Positions 35,094 through 63,434 of a stretch of 64,000 nt of DNA are shown here, in pieces. The notes under the pieces are model-generated. The model worked only from the letters and a program-made list of their open reading frames with translations, did no database searches and was not told the origin of the DNA. The position numbers were made by a program, and so were the translations under genes. This DNA is from an uncultured Caryophanales bacterium. GTDB lineage: Bacteria > Bacillota_I > Bacilli_A > RFN20 > CAG-826. The DNA is taken from NCBI GenBank assembly GCA_946409515.1, contig CAMJWS010000001.1, forward strand, positions 127,557 to 191,556, given 5' to 3'. Each line of letters opens with the position of its first letter. Within the stretch, counting starts at the first letter, position 1.

Positions 35094-38000
35094 TTATTCT
35101 TCATCAGCTTTCTTAAATTTATTAGTGCCTCTAACTGTTTCAATTAAAGCTTGCTTTTCTAATGGTCTGAAGAAGTAGAAGCCTTGTAATAAGGCATCAA
35201 CACCAACTTCTTTAATGAGTAAGTATTGGTCAATATTTTCAACACCGACGACAGAAGCTTTCATATCGAAACGATTGATTAATAAGAGTAATTGTTTCAA
35301 AGAGTTGAAACGTTGGTTATCACTATCGATGTGGGTAACAAGGTTACGGGAAATCTTCACTTCATCGAAGCCGATTTCTTTTAAGATTTCAATAGAGATA
35401 TATCGGCCTGTATATTGGTCACACACCAAGACGATATTGAGATCTCTAAGCATCTTAGCAATGCTCTTGAATTCATCAATATGAGTAGAAACATCATGTT
35501 CTGGAATTTCGAAAGCGATAAAGTGCTTTGGAAGTTTCAAGTCATCAATATATTTCTTAATATCTTTAGCGAAGTTCTTATCGGTAAAGAAGGAATAGTC
35601 AGTATTAAGACCAAATCTTCTAAAGCCTAAAGATGAGAAGAACATCGCACCATATTCTTTATATAAAGAAGCGGTGAAATCAAGAAGGGCGTGAGAAATG
35701 ATGCCGATTTGGTTATATTTCGCAGCGATATTAACGACTTCATCAGTACGCATCGCGATATTACGATAATCATCAGTAATACGTAAGAGAAGTTCTGCGC
35801 CATAGATTTGTTTATCAGAAGAATTAACCATTGGTTGTAAGTTGATATCGTATGTCTTATCGCCGAATGATTTCTTAATAATAGAAAGAATGTATTCTTC
35901 CCTATTCGCACTTCTAGAATAATCATTTTCATCAAAATAAATATAATCCTTATTAACTTCATAACGGCCTCTTGTGGAGAAGACATCAGCTTGTTTAATT
36001 AAGCTTGTAGCGTTAGGGAAGGCACGAGGATAAGAAACTGGTAAGAAGGTGATGTTTAAAACATAGTCCGCGGACTTATCAAGATTCTTCGCTACAGCGT
36101 AAATCTTTTCACATTCATCTAAGATGTCAGTTTGGCCGTATTCGTAGAATAACATCGCCATGAATTGATTAGTGTAATAGAAGATATTTTCTAAACCATT
36201 ATGTAACTTCTTAAGACGTTTAGCGAAGTCACGAAGAATAGATAAAGTACCTTCAGAACCATGTTCTTGCACAAGTTCTTCTAAGTTATCAATTCTTAAT
36301 AAGAGTAAGTAACCTTTACCGTTCATTGTGTAGATATCATCTAAGTTCTCCACGAGAGTGTGGAAGGAATTGATGAGAAGGTCTTGGTTATAACGGCTAT
36401 GTGATTTATGAGAATAGACATTCTTAATCGCTAAAACACGATAGATATTATGGTGATCAGATAACACTAAGGATGTCTCATAGTTATCACGACCATATTT
36501 CACTGTTTTCTTATTGCCTGTAAGAAGTGGACAATCTTTGCAAGGCATATCTAAGCCATATAAAGCCTTATGACATTTTTCACCATATTTAACATTTGGG
36601 AATAAGGCTTTTAATGTTTGACTACTATTTAAGAGTGTGAAGTCATCAGCACTGACACGATAGGTAGAGAAATCAGCGAGTTTAAGAATCGCATCAATTT
36701 CATCAAATGAACTTTCGATTTCACTATCACGCTTAGCGCTAATTAAGTAAGAAGCGATTCTAGTGCAAAGCATTAACATGGATTCTTGAATATAAGAATC
36801 GAACTTTAATTCCTTGTTTTTATTGAAGAAATAAATGACACCTTGCACCACATCATTGCTCTTAATGACATAATAGAAGCCACTTTCTAGTCCAATGCGG
36901 TCTAAATGACGTCCTAAGGCGTTATTCGCATGATTCCTGAATGAGAAGTAGTAAGAACCATTATCGTCCTTAGTTTCGTCCATTATGCGGATTAAAGCCT
37001 GGTTGACGTTACCATCATGAGATAACGGATTGATTTCATCATCATTTGCTTGATAGGCAATGATGTAGCGTTTGTTAACAGCATCAAGAGCGATGATACC
37101 AGCATAGTTGATACCAAAGTATTGTGCGGTGGTTTTAATCGTATTTTGAATAATCTTATTATTCTCACTAGCGTTATTGGAACCATGTTTCATCGCGGAT
37201 AAAGGTGCGATGATTTTACTCATGTTGTTGAGGTTTGTGGAATTTCTTAAAATGGCGTTACTCTTTAAGGAATGTAAACGGTTTGGTAAATAGAAGAAAA
37301 TATCGTTACCTTGACGTTTCGCATAACGCAAGTCTGGGAAAATTTCATTTACATCACTATATGGGTAGCAAACCACAGAGAAATGCGCGGTTAATGGAGT
37401 AATACCATCTGCGAGACGTTTAGAAATAGAAGCGCTACGCATACATGTTTCTAATTGCTCTCTGATTTTGCTTAAAGAATCGATTCTTGGTAAATAGAGA
37501 TAAACACTCTTACTATCTTCACCTAAAACATATAAAGGCTGCTCATAGTCATAGAAGTTTTCTTGCAAGACTTTAAGAATATAATCGATATTCTTTTTGG
37601 TTAACGGTTCATCTTCAAGTTCATAATATGTTTCGATGATGATATTACGATAGTTTTGTGATTTGAAGATGATGTTATCAATCTCTCTTTTGAACGATTC
37701 AAAAGTGACAAGGTTCTTTTCCTTATCGATATAATCTAATTCAATATCAAGGAAGTTATTTTCATTAGGAATAATAGTCGCACCGATTAATTCTTTTCTT
37801 AAGATATCAACGTGCTCATTTAATTCTGCGATTTCTTTATATTGCTTACTTGGATATTCACGGAAATCGTTTTCGTTTCTAGCGATGTTTTCAAAGTTAG
37901 AAATAGTGACACCATATAAGCCTTTAAAGAAGACGTTTCTAAAGCGGCTAACGACGTAGATTGTATAAAGAATATATAAGGCAATCATCGCCGCGGAGAA

Positions 38001-38159
38001 AATGATTAAGGCAATAAAGAATGCCATATCGTTAGTTCTAGCGTAGAAGAATGTGAAAAGCGTCATGCCTAAAGCAAAGACAATTAAGAAGACGATTGGG
38101 AAGCTCATCACGAAACGGAAGAAGGTTTTGATTGAACGGCTTTTAAATGATTTTAGCAT
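35094..38159 (-). CDS. membrane-anchored GGDEF/GAF-like protein with degenerate EAL domain
   Basis: A 1021-residue signalling protein, last gene of the fibre operon. Two membrane helices lie at about 14-66. The middle holds a sensor-like domain (about 325-480) and a degenerate nucleotide-cyclase-like domain (about 590-745). The C-terminal 250 residues follow the EAL plan (NLQPMVNSSDKQIYGAELLL onwards) but key residues are lost: the DDFG motif reads CDQYTG, KID reads KIS, and EGVE reads VGVE. It probably binds c-di-GMP or a partner without hydrolysing it. GGAGG for its ATG lies inside the end of the upstream gene, so translation is coupled. Confidence 0.75.
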   Translation of the reverse strand: MLKSFKSRSIKTFFRFVMSFPIVFLIVFALGMTLFTFFYARTNDMAFFIALIIFSAAMIALYILYTIYVVSRFRNVFFKGLYGVTISNFENIARNENDFREYPSKQYKEIAELNEHVDILRKELIGATIIPNENNFLDIELDYIDKEKNLVTFESFKREIDNIIFKSQNYRNIIIETYYELEDEPLTKKNIDYILKVLQENFYDYEQPLYVLGEDSKSVYLYLPRIDSLSKIREQLETCMRSASISKRLADGITPLTAHFSVVCYPYSDVNEIFPDLRYAKRQGNDIFFYLPNRLHSLKSNAILRNSTNLNNMSKIIAPLSAMKHGSNNASENNKIIQNTIKTTAQYFGINYAGIIALDAVNKRYIIAYQANDDEINPLSHDGNVNQALIRIMDETKDDNGSYYFSFRNHANNALGRHLDRIGLESGFYYVIKSNDVVQGVIYFFNKNKELKFDSYIQESMLMLCTRIASYLISAKRDSEIESSFDEIDAILKLADFSTYRVSADDFTLLNSSQTLKALFPNVKYGEKCHKALYGLDMPCKDCPLLTGNKKTVKYGRDNYETSLVLSDHHNIYRVLAIKNVYSHKSHSRYNQDLLINSFHTLVENLDDIYTMNGKGYLLLLRIDNLEELVQEHGSEGTLSILRDFAKRLKKLHNGLENIFYYTNQFMAMLFYEYGQTDILDECEKIYAVAKNLDKSADYVLNITFLPVSYPRAFPNATSLIKQADVFSTRGRYEVNKDYIYFDENDYSRSANREEYILSIIKKSFGDKTYDINLQPMVNSSDKQIYGAELLLRITDDYRNIAMRTDEVVNIAAKYNQIGIISHALLDFTASLYKEYGAMFFSSLGFRRFGLNTDYSFFTDKNFAKDIKKYIDDLKLPKHFIAFEIPEHDVSTHIDEFKSIAKMLRDLNIVLVCDQYTGRYISIEILKEIGFDEVKISRNLVTHIDSDNQRFNSLKQLLLLINRFDMKASVVGVENIDQYLLIKEVGVDALLQGFYFFRPLEKQALIETVRGTNKFKKADEE

Positions 38160-38160
38160 T

Positions 38161-38904
38161 TTACTTACCTCCTTCAGTGATGATTTCATTACGACCAATG
38201 TCACCGATACAAGTAACAACGGCTTTACCGATATTGACGTATTCTTTCATCGCTTTTAAGTATGTATTAACATCACTATTCTTATCTAAGTAACGTTCCA
38301 CGACTTTGATAGAAACAAATGGCACCTTTGTGAGGTTGCACGCTAAAGCGGCACCACCCGTATTTGTGTCAAATACCACGTTATTATCAAAACCTAAGAC
38401 ATGTTCAAACTCTTCAATGTCATAGATTTGACCTGGTTTATGATAGTCCACACTCGTGGAAATGAAGTTAGCTTCTTTAAAGATAGAGAATGTTCTCTTT
38501 TCAAAGGCGCTTTCAATATAGGAAACAACGTCTTCAGAAGCATCGAAGACTTGTTCAAAGCCTGGGATTTGACCATATTTAACATTATCTTCGTTAACTT
38601 GGTCAACATCTCCCAAGATAACGTGCTTAGAAATAACAATATCTAATGGTTTTAAGTCTTTCTTATAAGCGATACAACGACCCACCACTAAAACGAGGAT
38701 AACGAAATATTTCTCAATGAGATATAACGTTAGAGCACTGCTCAAGTAATTTGTTTTTACTTGATCCACTAACATGACCGCTTGGTTAAAGATTGTGCCA
38801 ATGGTCACTTTGAATTTGCCCATGACGAGTTCTTCTCTTTTGTTAGTGATGACACTTTCGAAGTAGAGGATATCATCATGTTGGCTACCAATAATCATGA
38901 TCAT
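38161..38904 (-). CDS. MTA/SAH nucleosidase-fold protein, catalytic residues missing
   Basis: A 247-residue protein with the phosphorylase/nucleosidase plan: N-terminal MIIGSQHDDI, LDIVISKHVILGDVD in place of the GDIVV segment, KYGQIPG, and FDTNTGGAALACNLTKVPFVSIKVV aligning with the EMEATAIAHVC...VPFVVVRAISD block of MTA/SAH nucleosidase. The N-terminal Glu, the ribose-binding Met-Glu pair and the catalytic Asp of that enzyme all appear replaced. It is probably a binding or regulatory pseudoenzyme. It overlaps the EAL gene by four bases (ATGA), between two c-di-GMP-type proteins. Confidence 0.6.
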   Translation of the reverse strand: MIMIIGSQHDDILYFESVITNKREELVMGKFKVTIGTIFNQAVMLVDQVKTNYLSSALTLYLIEKYFVILVLVVGRCIAYKKDLKPLDIVISKHVILGDVDQVNEDNVKYGQIPGFEQVFDASEDVVSYIESAFEKRTFSIFKEANFISTSVDYHKPGQIYDIEEFEHVLGFDNNVVFDTNTGGAALACNLTKVPFVSIKVVERYLDKNSDVNTYLKAMKEYVNIGKAVVTCIGDIGRNEIITEGGK

Positions 38905-40442
38905 GCGTTAAGACCCTCCTTCTTTTCAAATGGGTTATTATCTAAGAATTTTTCGAAAGCTTTCTTTTCTAAGGCTTCAGAATAATAGAAACCTTGGATC
39001 GTATCGCACTTAGCTTTCTTTAAAATCTCAACTTGTTCTCTGTTATCGACACCTTCAGCGACAACTTCCATACCATTGATCTTACAAAGACCAATTAAGA
39101 ATCTCACGATTTCACGTGATTTAGTGTCGTTAACGATGCCATCAATAAATGACTTATCAATCTTAACAACGTCGAATGGAATCTTTCTTAAGTTACCGAC
39201 GTTAGAGAAACCAATACCAAAGTCATCCATTAAGACGCGAATACCGTTTTCTTTAAGCTTCTTAATAATGGAGATGGATAAGAATTGGTTAGCTTGAGAA
39301 GTCGCTTCTGTAATTTCAATTTCAATTAAATTCGCAGGGACATGGAATTCTTCTAAGATACCCATAATCGTATCTAAGAAGTTCGCACTATAGAATTCGA
39401 ATAAGGAGAAGTTAACAGAGACTGGTAAGGCTCTTCTACCTCTTCTAATTAATTCATTTAAGTCTTCACAAACTTGTCTTAAGACATAGATATCAATATC
39501 GTGAATTAAACCAATGGCTTCCGCTTTGTTAAGGAACTTAGTAGGCGCTAATAAACCATACTTTTTACTGTTCCATCTAATTAAAGCTTCTGAAGAAATA
39601 AACTGTCTCTTGGCTAAATCAAATTTAGGTTGATAATAAACAACGAATTCTTTATTTTCTAAAGCTTGAGTTAATTCTTCAATATCACTAGAAGTAACAC
39701 TCTTACGGAATGTCTCTTGATAATAAGTAATTGTTTCAAAGTTCTTTTCGGAATTGTCTCTCGCTAATAAAGCGTTTTCAATTTGGTGAGTTAATTGTCC
39801 ACTATCAAAGACACGAGCAACACCGAAGAATGGTTGCACCCAGATATGACGGCAGTTTTGTTCACCAAATTCATAAGCATCTTTAGCGATAGTTTCACAG
39901 ATATTTTGAATAGATTGTTCATTTTGTCTTGAGCAATAGATTAAGAAAGAACCACGAGAGAAACCATAGACAAAGTCTCTCTTCTTTCCACCGACCTTCA
40001 TTGGTAATTGTTCTAAGAAATTAGCGATGTGGTTATTGATTAAATAAATTTCGTGGTTTCTATTAACGTTTTGGGAAATAACAAGAGAAGAGAATGTGAA
40101 AGCAATAATATGTTCTGTTTTCTTACCAATTCTATTGAATCTTGAAATTAATTCAACACGCTTTTGGAAAGCATACATATTAAAGAAAGCACTTCTCACA
40201 CCTAAGTTATATTCGTTATCGTCTTGTAATGTCTTAATCATCGATAAGTTAGAAACATATAAGTAAACAAAGGTAACGAAAATAACGACCAAACCAATAG
40301 TGATGAGGTTTAGTAAATTGTTTAAGAAAATATTGTCACCGAAAACACCACCGATGAGGGCTAAACCTGTAACTACGGCAACGGCCGCAAGAAGAACAGC
40401 CGTGATGATAACTATAGCTAATCTTCCTCTACTTGCTTTCAT
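38901..40442 (-). CDS. EAL-domain c-di-GMP phosphodiesterase, membrane anchored
   Basis: A 513-residue protein with two membrane helices (about 8-32 and 40-63), a degenerate GGDEF-like region (about 95-245) and a full EAL domain (about 255-500). Catalytic and metal-binding residues are present: SEALIRW (EAL), the Asn in PVSVNFS, the Glu in IEIEITEA, MDDFGIGFSN (DD), VKIDKSFI (Lys), VVAEGVD and QGFYYS. It should hydrolyse c-di-GMP to pGpG. Being downstream of a predicted c-di-GMP riboswitch in the same operon it can close a feedback loop. Its stop is TGA, the only one noted in the window. Confidence 0.88.
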   Translation of the reverse strand: MKASRGRLAIVIITAVLLAAVAVVTGLALIGGVFGDNIFLNNLLNLITIGLVVIFVTFVYLYVSNLSMIKTLQDDNEYNLGVRSAFFNMYAFQKRVELISRFNRIGKKTEHIIAFTFSSLVISQNVNRNHEIYLINNHIANFLEQLPMKVGGKKRDFVYGFSRGSFLIYCSRQNEQSIQNICETIAKDAYEFGEQNCRHIWVQPFFGVARVFDSGQLTHQIENALLARDNSEKNFETITYYQETFRKSVTSSDIEELTQALENKEFVVYYQPKFDLAKRQFISSEALIRWNSKKYGLLAPTKFLNKAEAIGLIHDIDIYVLRQVCEDLNELIRRGRRALPVSVNFSLFEFYSANFLDTIMGILEEFHVPANLIEIEITEATSQANQFLSISIIKKLKENGIRVLMDDFGIGFSNVGNLRKIPFDVVKIDKSFIDGIVNDTKSREIVRFLIGLCKINGMEVVAEGVDNREQVEILKKAKCDTIQGFYYSEALEKKAFEKFLDNNPFEKKEGLNA

Positions 40443-41292
40443 GGCTTTCTCCTTTCTTCTTGCTAATCATTTCTTCTAAGAGTTGTTCTTTAAGTCTTTT
40501 TTTATCTTCTTCGGAAAGAGTTTTAGGACCATTGCTATTGCTAGCTTGTCCTCCCGCTCCTTCTTGAGCAACTTCTGGCTCTTTATAAGCCTTAAAGATA
40601 TCAATGACACTAGATACCACTAAATAGAATGCTGGGATTAATAGGAGTACCAATAATCCAATAGGTGAACCAACAAACGAGAAGATACCACCTAAGAATG
40701 CAGAGTTAATTGTCACCCTACCAAGGACTTCTTTTTCTGTGAAAGCTTGATATTGGTTAATAACGATATCAGGTTCTCCTTCTTTCCAACCTAAGTTTGT
40801 GGATCTTGTATTAATACCGGCGGTGATAAATGTATATTTACCTTTGCCTTTTTCCGCACCATTATTAACATGAATTTCTTTGACTCTATGGGTCATAGGA
40901 ACGCCAGTAGGATCAGTTCTTTTTGTTAATTCTGGATTATTCATTGGTGAAGTATATTCATTATTGATGTTATAAACGTCAACGAATGTGATATCCACGT
41001 CTTCACCTTTATTGAAACGCTCATAAATCTTATCAGCGTCTTCATTATAAGTAATAAGAGCGGTACCAACTTTGTATTTTGGATCCATGGAATCTGTTTG
41101 AACAACGAAGGTACCATAGCCAAATCTAAGTTGTTGGTTATAATGATCTTTCTTATGAACTAAGCCATCAATTTGGCCCGCAAGGACGAAGGCAAAAAGC
41201 ACAAGGAAAAGACCAGTAAGGACCCATTCAATTATCTTTCTGGCCTTACTTTTTGGCTTTTTCACACGTTTTTCCTTCACTTGTTCGTCCAT
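40429..41292 (-). CDS. sipW: SipW-like type I signal peptidase (S26B)
   Basis: Cleaves signal peptides of TasA/camelysin-like proteins. The 287-residue protein has an N-terminal membrane helix (about 20-42), the nucleophile Ser68 in TDSMDPKYKVG, and His135 in MTHRV in place of the Lys used by most bacterial enzymes; a Ser-His pair is the mark of the SipW/archaeal/ER type. A second helix lies at about 203-232, then a charged tail of 55 residues. It sits in the operon with its probable substrates. It overlaps the EAL gene by 14 bases. Confidence 0.88.
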   Translation of the reverse strand: MDEQVKEKRVKKPKSKARKIIEWVLTGLFLVLFAFVLAGQIDGLVHKKDHYNQQLRFGYGTFVVQTDSMDPKYKVGTALITYNEDADKIYERFNKGEDVDITFVDVYNINNEYTSPMNNPELTKRTDPTGVPMTHRVKEIHVNNGAEKGKGKYTFITAGINTRSTNLGWKEGEPDIVINQYQAFTEKEVLGRVTINSAFLGGIFSFVGSPIGLLVLLLIPAFYLVVSSVIDIFKAYKEPEVAQEGAGGQASNSNGPKTLSEEDKKRLKEQLLEEMISKKKGESHESK

Positions 41293-50751: not shown

Positions 50752-50816
50752 AAATAGCTAACTCTGTTTTACTCCCTTTTAAGGTTTTTGTTGTTTTGTC
50801 CCAATGGGTGAGAAAT

Positions 50817-50998
50817 TAAAATGCCAGTGCCTATCATCCATTTTTTCATGGCGGGTTTAATTTCGTACCCTAAGGCAACTGGCTATCTTTACAAGAATAT
50901 AAAACCTCAACTGTTTCAAACAATTGAGGTTGCTGGCTATCTTATATAAGACCCTATAGTTTTGCGTCGCCGGATTGCTCCGGTTTTGCTTTTAGCTC
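50817..50998 (-). ncRNA. class I cyclic-di-GMP (GEMM) riboswitch, leader of the long fibre operon
   Basis: Read on the minus strand from about 50998. GCAAAA precedes stem CCGGA-GCAA-TCCGG with a GNRA tetraloop (50983-50970). GACGCAAAACTATAGGG follows, then TCTTATATAAGATAGCCAG. This is the conserved GEMM core (GCAAA, GNRA hairpin, ACGCAAA, CTATAGGG, GCCAG). A strong hairpin (AACCTCAA.../...TTGAGGTT, 50932-50901) with TTTTATATT comes next, then a second copy AAGATAGCCAGTTGCC (50889-50874). This can pair with the 5' GCAA or with GGCACTGGC (50831-50823), which is followed by ATTTTAATTT. Two exclusive folds, aptamer or terminator, are therefore possible. Whether c-di-GMP turns expression on or off is not decided. 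Confidence 0.82.
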
Positions 50999-62393: not shown

Positions 62394-63260
62394 CTAAGCA
62401 AGTCTAAACATCAAATTTGTAAGAGATAACTTCTCATAGCAGTTACTATTTCCGAGAGTATCTTTTACGTAGTAAGGGTTGTTATAAGTATAATATGTGG
62501 AACTATCATCTGAAAACTCTATAGAGAAATAAATTACAACACGTTTGGTATTTCCCGCTGTTCCAGAGATTGAATTCAAGATAGTAATTGATGGTTTTGT
62601 AGTTGGAGCAATGTTGCTTTGACTATAAGTAAACTTATCAACAAGAGTGTTGTTTGTAATATCGGTGTTATAAGTCGCAAAGCCACTTGCGATATCATCA
62701 GTGACTTCAGCAGTGCTATCAATGTAATAAGCACCACCATACATATTGATAGCCCATGATAAAGAGATTTCAACATCTTCGCTATTAACTTGTGTCACGA
62801 CAGAAGGAAGAGTAACTTCACTCCAAGAGAACAAATTAAATGAACTTAATGAACCTTCAGTCACCACGATAGCATAAGTAAGTTTATGAGCAGGCCATAA
62901 ATGATTGATATCTGTAGGAGCATCAGCATTTGTGACGTTGCCACTATTATCGTAATTAACTTTGACGAAAACTGGATTAGCATAAGCGTTTTCATAACCG
63001 GCGAAAGTATCAATACCAGCGTTATAGTTACCGTCTTTAGTTGTGCTTTGATCAACAGCAAAATGACGGAGATAATATAATTCAAAATCAAGGCCGGTTT
63101 CAGCTTTAATGGTAATGGAGTTAGTCACAGCGGTAACGCTTTGGTTAGTAACAAACCATGCATATGTACCAGTAAAAACAGATGCAAGAGAAAAGATTGC
63201 AGTTGCAGTTGCACCAGCGATTTTTAATCTTGTACGTGTTTTGCTTGAGTAACCCTTCAT
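62394..63260 (-). CDS. SipW-dependent-type exported protein, first gene of the surface operon
   Basis: A 288-residue protein. The N-terminus MKGYSSKTRTRLKIAGATAT leads to FTGTYAWFVTNQSVTAVTNSI, a clear SipW-type signal with the TYAWF motif. The mature part has ITIKAETGLDFELYYLRHF and RVVIYFSIEFSDDSSTYY, TasA-like strands. I chose the ATG at 63260; an in-frame TTG at 63275 lies inside the 3' arm of the leader hairpin. No separate ribosome-binding site exists between the hairpin and the ATG, so leader folding could control translation directly. Confidence 0.75.
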   Translation of the reverse strand: MKGYSSKTRTRLKIAGATATAIFSLASVFTGTYAWFVTNQSVTAVTNSITIKAETGLDFELYYLRHFAVDQSTTKDGNYNAGIDTFAGYENAYANPVFVKVNYDNSGNVTNADAPTDINHLWPAHKLTYAIVVTEGSLSSFNLFSWSEVTLPSVVTQVNSEDVEISLSWAINMYGGAYYIDSTAEVTDDIASGFATYNTDITNNTLVDKFTYSQSNIAPTTKPSITILNSISGTAGNTKRVVIYFSIEFSDDSSTYYTYNNPYYVKDTLGNSNCYEKLSLTNLMFRLA

Positions 63261-63265
63261 AAATT

Positions 63266-63434
63266 TAAAAGCCAATTGCCTATCAATAACGGAATCGACC
63301 CGTAAGGCAACTGGCTGTCTCCTAAAGAATATAAAACCTCAACTGTGATTAACAATTGAGGTTGCTGGCTATCTTTATTGTAAGACCCTATAGTTTTGCG
63401 TCACTAGATTACTCTAGTTTTGCTCTTTTCTCAC
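63266..63434 (-). ncRNA. class I cyclic-di-GMP (GEMM) riboswitch, leader of the surface operon
   Basis: Read on the minus strand. GAGCAAAA precedes stem CTAGA-GTAA-TCTAG (63417-63404), a GNRA hairpin. GACGCAAAACTATAGGG follows and then TCTTACAATAAAGATAGCCAG. The core matches the leader at 50817-50998 while the stems differ with compensating changes, which supports the fold. The AACCTCAA/TTGAGGTT hairpin (63364-63333) follows, then a second GACAGCCAGTTGCCT (63319-63305). This can pair with AGGCAATTGGCT (63281-63270), which is followed by TTTTAAATTT ten bases before the ATG. Confidence 0.85.

Follow-up and report, generated by a model that had tools for sequence, protein, structure and literature searches.

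Two leader RNAs on the minus strand of the window (the whole stretch of 64,000 nucleotides analysed here) each carry a single 5' half of a GEMM-I aptamer followed by two 3' halves that compete for it, and each 3' half runs into a terminator-like hairpin of its own. This plan is conserved in 21 leaders, with covariation in its stems. We propose, at a probability of about 0.5, that such a leader is an ON switch that tests its ligand twice, one 5' half being used twice during transcription: the proximal 3' half would already respond to ligand, strand exchange would follow, and the output would be steeper and less leaky. At slightly less than even odds we would put a more specific reading: during transcription the 5' half would pass from the first 3' half, which is weakened, to the second, canonical one. 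A single RNA would then read one ligand twice in succession and would act as a switch for proofreading or for coincidence in time that needs no duplicate aptamer.

Both leaders are recognised by the GEMM-I model (RF01051, gathering cut-off 35 bits): leader A at 51000-50874 with 47.6 bits and leader B at 63434-63357 with 49.8 bits, both on the minus strand, and they are the only RF01051 matches in the whole source genome. A sequence-only reading of the window had taken leader A for a second GEMM leader with the same double architecture as leader B, standing before an 11-gene operon. This was borne out: the P3 3' strand is present twice in each leader, the copies lying 54 nt apart, and leader A is followed by 11 same-strand genes, from 50751 down to 35094, that fit a predicted operon. 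The feature is more than an extra terminator: it comprises the whole 5' leader, about 51002-50813 for leader A and 63434-63270 for leader B. The order of parts is the same in the two: aptamer 5' half, proximal 3' half, a first hairpin (T1) with a U-rich tail, distal 3' half, and a second hairpin (T2) with a U-rich tail.

In leader A, the 5' strand of P1, a GAG near the transcript start, lies at 50996-50998. The aptamer 5' half matched by RF01051 (50964-50989) contains GCAAA, P2 (50983-50979/50974-50970, with its GNRA loop at 50978-50975) and the GACGC core; in both leaders these elements read GCAAA, GNRA-capped P2, GACGCAAA and the P3 5' strand AACTATAGGGTCT. According to the leader alignment and pair counts, both 3' copies compete for one P3 5' strand, AACTATAGGGTCTT at 50948-50961. 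The proximal 3' half, GATAGCCAG-CAACC in both leaders, occupies 50928-50941 in leader A and has A81 in place of the usual U. T1 (50903-50931; terminator scan and alignment) starts at this A81 and takes up C83 and C84, its 5' arm AACCTCAATTG overlapping the proximal 3' half, and is followed by the tail TTATATTCTT at 50902-50893, found by the terminator scan. C83 we take to be the ligand-pairing base, corresponding to C92 of Vc2. The distal 3' half, with the canonical U81, is GATAGCCAG-TTGCC in leader A (50874-50887 by the RF01051 alignment, with P3 pairs in 98.8-100% of cells) and GACAGCCAG-TTGCC in leader B. T2 (50823-50883) takes up the entire distal 3' strand: the distal 3' half serves as its 5' arm (50883-50873), and its 3' arm lies at 50832-50823, with the tail ATTTTAATTT at 50822-50813 identified by folding. 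In leader B, which occupies 63335-63434 from the GAG (63432-63430) and the aptamer 5' half through the proximal 3' half (63373-63365) to T1 (63363-63335), the remaining 63270-63319 hold the distal 3' half (63319-63311) and T2 (63316-63305/63281-63270), and an ATG follows at 63260.

Both hairpins are predicted to combine a stable stem with a U-rich tract, as expected of an intrinsic terminator, although the tails of both are modest U-tracts. T1 is flagged as terminator-like in both leaders by the terminator scan; the loop of T2 is too large for that scan, and T2 folds with a U-rich tail such as TTTTAATTT. Between the T2 arms of leader A lie the inner hairpins GGGT/ACCC (50870-50853) and CCAT/ATGG (50851-50838), together a spacer at 50838-50870. 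Their presence is confirmed, but not their restriction to this copy: they also occur in two single leaders of the same operon (L044, L046), and most B-type leaders have one inner T2 hairpin of their own. Between T2 and the first gene, TTGGGACA (50797-50804) is conserved, being invariant in the 10 A-type doubles and found as well in single leaders that precede this operon in other genera.

Transcription of leader A probably begins at a promoter of its own, since a terminator-like minus-strand hairpin at 51090-51074 appears to end the upstream gene. Directly upstream of its GAG a -10 promoter-like element can be read by eye; a sigma-70 promoter scan of both regions found 3 sites against 3.0 expected from shuffled sequence.

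Compared with each other, the two leaders differ as the sequence-only reading had described at P2, where one has CCGGA/TCCGG, the other CTAGA/TCTAG. It had also held the second strand to be common to both; both do have two copies, but the second copy is AAGATAGCCAGTTGCC at 50.9 kb and GGAGACAGCCAGTTGCC at 63.3 kb. Comparison of A with B, by contrast, shows no compensating changes in the terminator arms: T1 has identical paired arms (AACCTCAATTG/CAGTTGAGGTT), T2 differs on its 3' arm only, and such changes appear only once homologues are added.

The 21 double leaders come from 14 genomes, 12 of the source genus and two of another genus in the family; 10 stand before the operon of leader A, nine are B-like and two belong to the other genus (G118, G120). 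Within the source genus, leader DNA matches in 15 of 16 genomes and the double form is present in 12. A further A-type leader (L043/L213, in G143) is cut by a contig end, but its second copy and the last part of T1 remain. Before the same operon, G133 and G132 have a single leader (L044 and L046, respectively), as do other genera (for example L005, L007, L017, L022, L026-L028). In a scan of 220 genomes of the family, the double-form pattern matched in 15, namely the 12 of the genus, G118, G120 and G063, and a reversed control pattern matched in no genome listed. The covariance model of these 21 leaders gave them at least 126 bits and everything else at most 82.8 bits among the matches listed, in a search of 279 genomes of the order under strict filters.

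Scanning 84,980 species genomes with exact patterns, which miss diverged double forms, returned 65 stretches. Sorted by eye, these comprised 18 doubles, 10 stretches without the aptamer core, one from G063 (L105) and one from an Omnitrophota MAG (L111), and the remaining 35 look like arms of terminators or second matches due to chance. The double-form pattern also hit one viral contig, in which the aptamer core is missing. For 18 of the 21 doubles there are separate MAG records; G145B was not among the scan matches and G000 perhaps lay outside the scan. The MAGs with double leaders are labelled Bacilli, Erysipelotrichaceae or Bacillales, and several derive from rumen, reticulum or omasum samples.

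Two of these matches lie outside the set. In G063 (L063/L105) a terminator is followed by AGATAGCCGG near the start codon; this may be a double form in its own right, or a matter of chance, and as a further member it is doubtful, the related leader of G071 being single and the second copy adjoining the start codon. L111 repeats a GEMM-I 3' half and P1 strand (GAAGATAC) about 33 nt apart on the reverse strand near position 2076, with a terminator on the second copy only; an independent origin of a duplicated 3' half is possible there.

Chance and assembly artefact can both be dismissed, because the same plan recurs in 21 leaders from 14 genomes with compensating changes. So can two complete tandem aptamers, because the core GACGCAAA occurs only once per leader.

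Covariation among the 21 homologous leaders supports the RNA folds, as had been proposed: P2, the upper T1 stem and one T2 pair covary, the pairs in the upper T1 stem and in the parts of T2 that MAFFT misaligned having been counted in register by script. Three P2 pairs show two-sided changes. G12-C37 and C13-G36 are present in 21/21 leaders, as are the P2 pairs except the end pair and the P3 core with either copy. T1 positions 89 and 90 are paired in all 21, in U-A, U-G and C-G forms that include two-sided changes, and position 91 occurs as G-C, G-U or A-U and is unpaired in 5/21. The T1 5' arm AACCTCAA is invariant (21/21) while the 3' arm varies, so the 5' arm probably serves a second purpose; in G118 and G120, where the 3' arm is changed, C83 is retained though its T1 partner is A. 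T2 arms could be read by eye in 15 of the 21, the pattern leaving out three B-type leaders without T2, G118, G120 and G137B (where T2 was seen by folding); in these 15, position 73 is A-U in 11, U-A in two (L034, L037) and A-A in two (L002, L035), and L049 also has U-A there in its fold. The T2 5' arm is nearly invariant, its variation consisting of the three B-type leaders without T2 and position 73, and the 3' arm varies.

Outside T1, the proximal P3 strand shows no variation in the 21 leaders, and its P3 pairs there (columns 44-45/71-72 and 49-54/63-70) are kept in 21/21, as are the distal pairs; variation in the distal copy falls at positions 72 and 73. Conserved 5' arms set against variable partners fit a second, aptamer role for both copies, although they do not by themselves prove ligand binding by the proximal one.

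The sequence-only reading had named, as evidence that would count against it, homologues that keep the core and lose the second strand or the terminator arm. Such leaders exist: L044 and L046 have no proximal copy, and the B-type leaders L045, L054 and L055 have no second terminator arm, so that this check had a mixed outcome. To us these cases look like gain or loss of a module and not like evidence of false folds. In L045 and L054, TTACCT from the second copy is paired to AGGTAATG, which lies at the start codon, and this suggests that in these leaders the second test could act on translation too. The rare GATTGCC variant of the distal copy occurs in both double leaders of G137 (L037 and L049), whose T1 loops are also alike, which hints that sequence was copied between them.

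Three points go beyond the sequence-only reading: the altered base of the proximal copy, the competition of the 3' halves for one 5' half, and uncertainty over the ligand. Position 81 is A in 21/21 proximal copies, and U in 21/21 distal copies and in 33/33 single leaders (the singles being those among L001-L084 that match one regular expression). The A40-U81 pair, which lies beside the ligand site, is therefore absent in 21/21 proximal forms and present with 21/21 distal copies; the next pair is also affected, position 80 being mostly C and A41-80 unpaired in 16/21 proximal forms. Lacking two pairs that adjoin the ligand site, the proximal copy may bind weakly or not at all. At P1, GAG is found in 21/21 doubles against 3/33 singles, and within the genus in 19/19 doubles against 1/7 singles, counts for which Fisher values are not clean because the leaders are related. 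This GAG pairs with the CUC of the proximal copy and the CUU of the distal copy (18/21). Covariation of P1 column 4 with the distal copy was unconvincing (8 U-A, 3 C-G and 10 unpaired; Fisher 0.2 on 16 leaders, leaving out the five with A: G140B, G144B, G142B, G118 and G120). We read the proximal aptamer as weaker at P3 and partly compensated at P1; it may equally be a decoy.

We estimated how the binding-competent fold (P3 pairs, G12-C37, C13-G36 and C83 free) fares at successive transcript lengths from its ensemble free-energy cost, a measure that ignores ligand, tertiary contacts and kinetics. For the proximal form, the median cost in the 21 leaders is 2.8 kcal/mol before T1 and 7.7 kcal/mol with T1. 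Once the distal copy is out, the medians are 11.3 kcal/mol for the proximal and 3.2 kcal/mol for the distal form; at full length they are 9.1 and 11.5 kcal/mol, respectively, the proximal form often being the cheaper in full-length folds. The costs thus predict two binding windows in succession, one for each 3' half, each of which opens and then closes. Fourteen single leaders resemble one such step (4.0 to 11.5 kcal/mol). The first window has a median length of 23 nt; the second measures 48.5 nt in A-type leaders, where the extra inner hairpins lengthen it, and 36 nt in the six B-type leaders in which it was measured. In G118 and G120, T1 leaves the window open (1.9 to 1.8 kcal/mol) and the distal form is costly (8.9 and 10.5 kcal/mol).

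From these elements, a switch with two tests could work as follows. The emerging proximal 3' half would pair with the 5' half. Ligand, if bound, would hold C83, which is shared with the T1 stem, so that T1 would not fully close and polymerase would pass; with no ligand, T1 would form and transcription would stop. As the canonical distal 3' half emerges, it would capture the 5' half by strand exchange, aided by refolding of the freed proximal strand into T1, now inside an enlarged P3; the move to the distal copy would be favoured because T1 can then close within P3. With ligand T2 would be blocked, and without it T2 would form and transcription would stop. The operon would thus be on only if both tests were passed, or if T1 leaked and the second was passed. 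In the pilM riboswitch, the terminator likewise sequesters the equivalent C, and the ligand-bound half-lives given for two related riboswitches are 25-190 s (PMC9262584). Such half-lives exceed the time we would expect for transcription of about 100 nt, and exchange may be too slow. The second genus, with T1 hardly changing the predicted cost, and the modest U-tracts also count against two tests.

The alternative that survives best, though we consider it unlikely, is that only the distal copy binds ligand. The proximal copy would then occupy the 5' half early, and T1 would be a ligand-independent attenuator that sets a fixed expression ceiling or delays the aptamer. The spoiled base of P3 in every proximal copy, at a position that is U in all distal copies and singles, speaks for this, as do the shortness of the window before T1 relative to that before T2, the weak competition of T1 with binding in G118 and G120, and the alignment of the 50.9 kb leader by Rfam to its distal copy. 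Rfam, however, aligns the 63.3 kb leader at full length to its proximal copy, the GAG/CUC pairing is tied to the double form, and the proximal P3 strand and C83-C84 are strictly conserved even where the T1 partner of C83 has been lost, all of which count against a mere decoy.

Improbable in our view is a band-pass switch, off at very low and at very high ligand and on at intermediate levels only, in which ligand locked in the proximal aptamer would carry transcription past T1 and leave the distal copy free to form T2. Slow ligand release in related riboswitches (PMC9262584) would allow it, the proximal aptamer and T2 can coexist in predicted full-length folds, and c-di-GMP is described as unfolding T1 of the related Bc1 riboswitch while T2 stays (PMC11218506). 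A weakened proximal site should, however, release ligand faster, and the distal form, once out, is favoured by a median of about 8 kcal/mol. Least probable of all is a tolerated insertion of a 3' strand and hairpin with no regulatory effect, spread by copying between leaders: the module is absent from the same-operon leader in G132 and G133, and the two G137 leaders hint at copying, but the double form persists in 12/16 genomes of the genus and two of another, its T1 arms change in compensating ways, and its proximal P3 strand has not decayed.

For the switch with two tests, the ligand is probably c-di-GMP, with cGAMP as a less likely candidate; it is uncertain because position 20, in numbering that we take to follow Vc2 (G20), is A. 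In Geobacter, A at this nucleotide goes with cGAMP. The 21 doubles have A in 18 and G in three, the 33 singles A in 16 and G in 17, and the two bases interchange among leaders of the same operon. The source genome (G000) has 11 GGDEF matches, which fit c-di-GMP as the EAL protein of operon A does, and all 16 genomes of the genus have some. Among the seven near-intact GGDEF domains of G000, the specificity position, which we map onto GHxxGD following PleD and GacA, is Asp in six and Asn in one, and none is of the Hypr type with Ser in place of Asp. In one example, A20G is reported to switch selectivity from cGAMP to c-di-GMP (PMC6456294). A single leader in G138 (L215, C42:6500-7000) has the core GTGCCACAAAAC where others have GTGACGCAAAAC and carries the TTGGGACA motif; it is possibly a riboswitch with changed specificity.

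The genes downstream touch on the same ligand. All on the minus strand, operon A ends with an EAL protein whose motif residues are in place (38901-40442; domain match and residue check), a short phosphorylase-family gene and a large degenerate EAL protein (35094-38219; domain match), so that the switch may govern how its own ligand is degraded or sensed. For most of the remaining genes in the operon, Pfam gave no match. The operon also encodes a SipW-like signal peptidase (40429-41292, minus strand; NCBIfam E 4.9e-9, below the cut-off), and the first gene behind leader B (62394-63260) looks secreted, with an N-terminal hydrophobic stretch ending in AWF; together these suggest that both leaders serve one surface-protein system. 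Such an AWF-ending N-terminus recurs in many genes behind GEMM leaders here, and the leader B cluster includes a BspA-type LRR protein of 1644 aa.

Precedents exist for c-di-GMP-I riboswitches, for their complete tandems and for two terminators behind one aptamer. Ordinary c-di-GMP-I riboswitches of the ON type with a terminator, such as Geobacter pilM (PMC9262584), share with the present leaders the core, P2 with its GNRA cap, P3 and sequestration of the ligand-pairing C by a terminator arm, but have one 3' half and one expression platform where there are here two 3' halves, each with a terminator-like hairpin. The tandem c-di-GMP-I riboswitches described as pseudo-cooperative (347 doublets and 12 triplets; PMC9481103) likewise place two successive checkpoints for one ligand on a transcript, with a steeper response expected; they consist, however, of two complete riboswitches each, whereas here a single GACGCAAA core and 5' half serve two 3' halves. 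By the account given there, the survey treated overlapping pairs as a single riboswitch and discarded them (PMC9481103), which probably removed the form with a shared half. The SAM-II/SAM-V tandems of that study combine two mechanisms, as do L045 and L054, where a terminator comes first and a module pairing at the Shine-Dalgarno or start region second; there each module has its own aptamer, and here the 5' half is shared (PMC9481103). The Bc1 c-di-GMP-I riboswitch of Bacillus thuringiensis also places two terminators, separated by 28 bp, behind one aptamer, but the description of Bc1 consulted mentions no second 3' half, and its T2 stays formed with ligand (PMC11218506). In the yxjA riboswitch, competing strands exchange cotranscriptionally to set termination, for one aptamer and one decision (PMC9756952); the exchange proposed here is between two 3' halves of the same aptamer. 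In the open-licence papers that our searches covered, a single 5' half combined with two 3' halves was not described.

Elsewhere, steeper or less leaky responses are obtained by stacking whole riboswitches. The leaders described here apparently obtain two-step testing with about 55-60 extra nucleotides, by duplication of a 3' half and addition of a hairpin. If this is true, they point to an overlapping class of riboswitches that a published tandem survey dropped as false positives, they offer a natural system for strand exchange between competing aptamer halves, and they would represent a cheap evolutionary route to two-step ligand testing.
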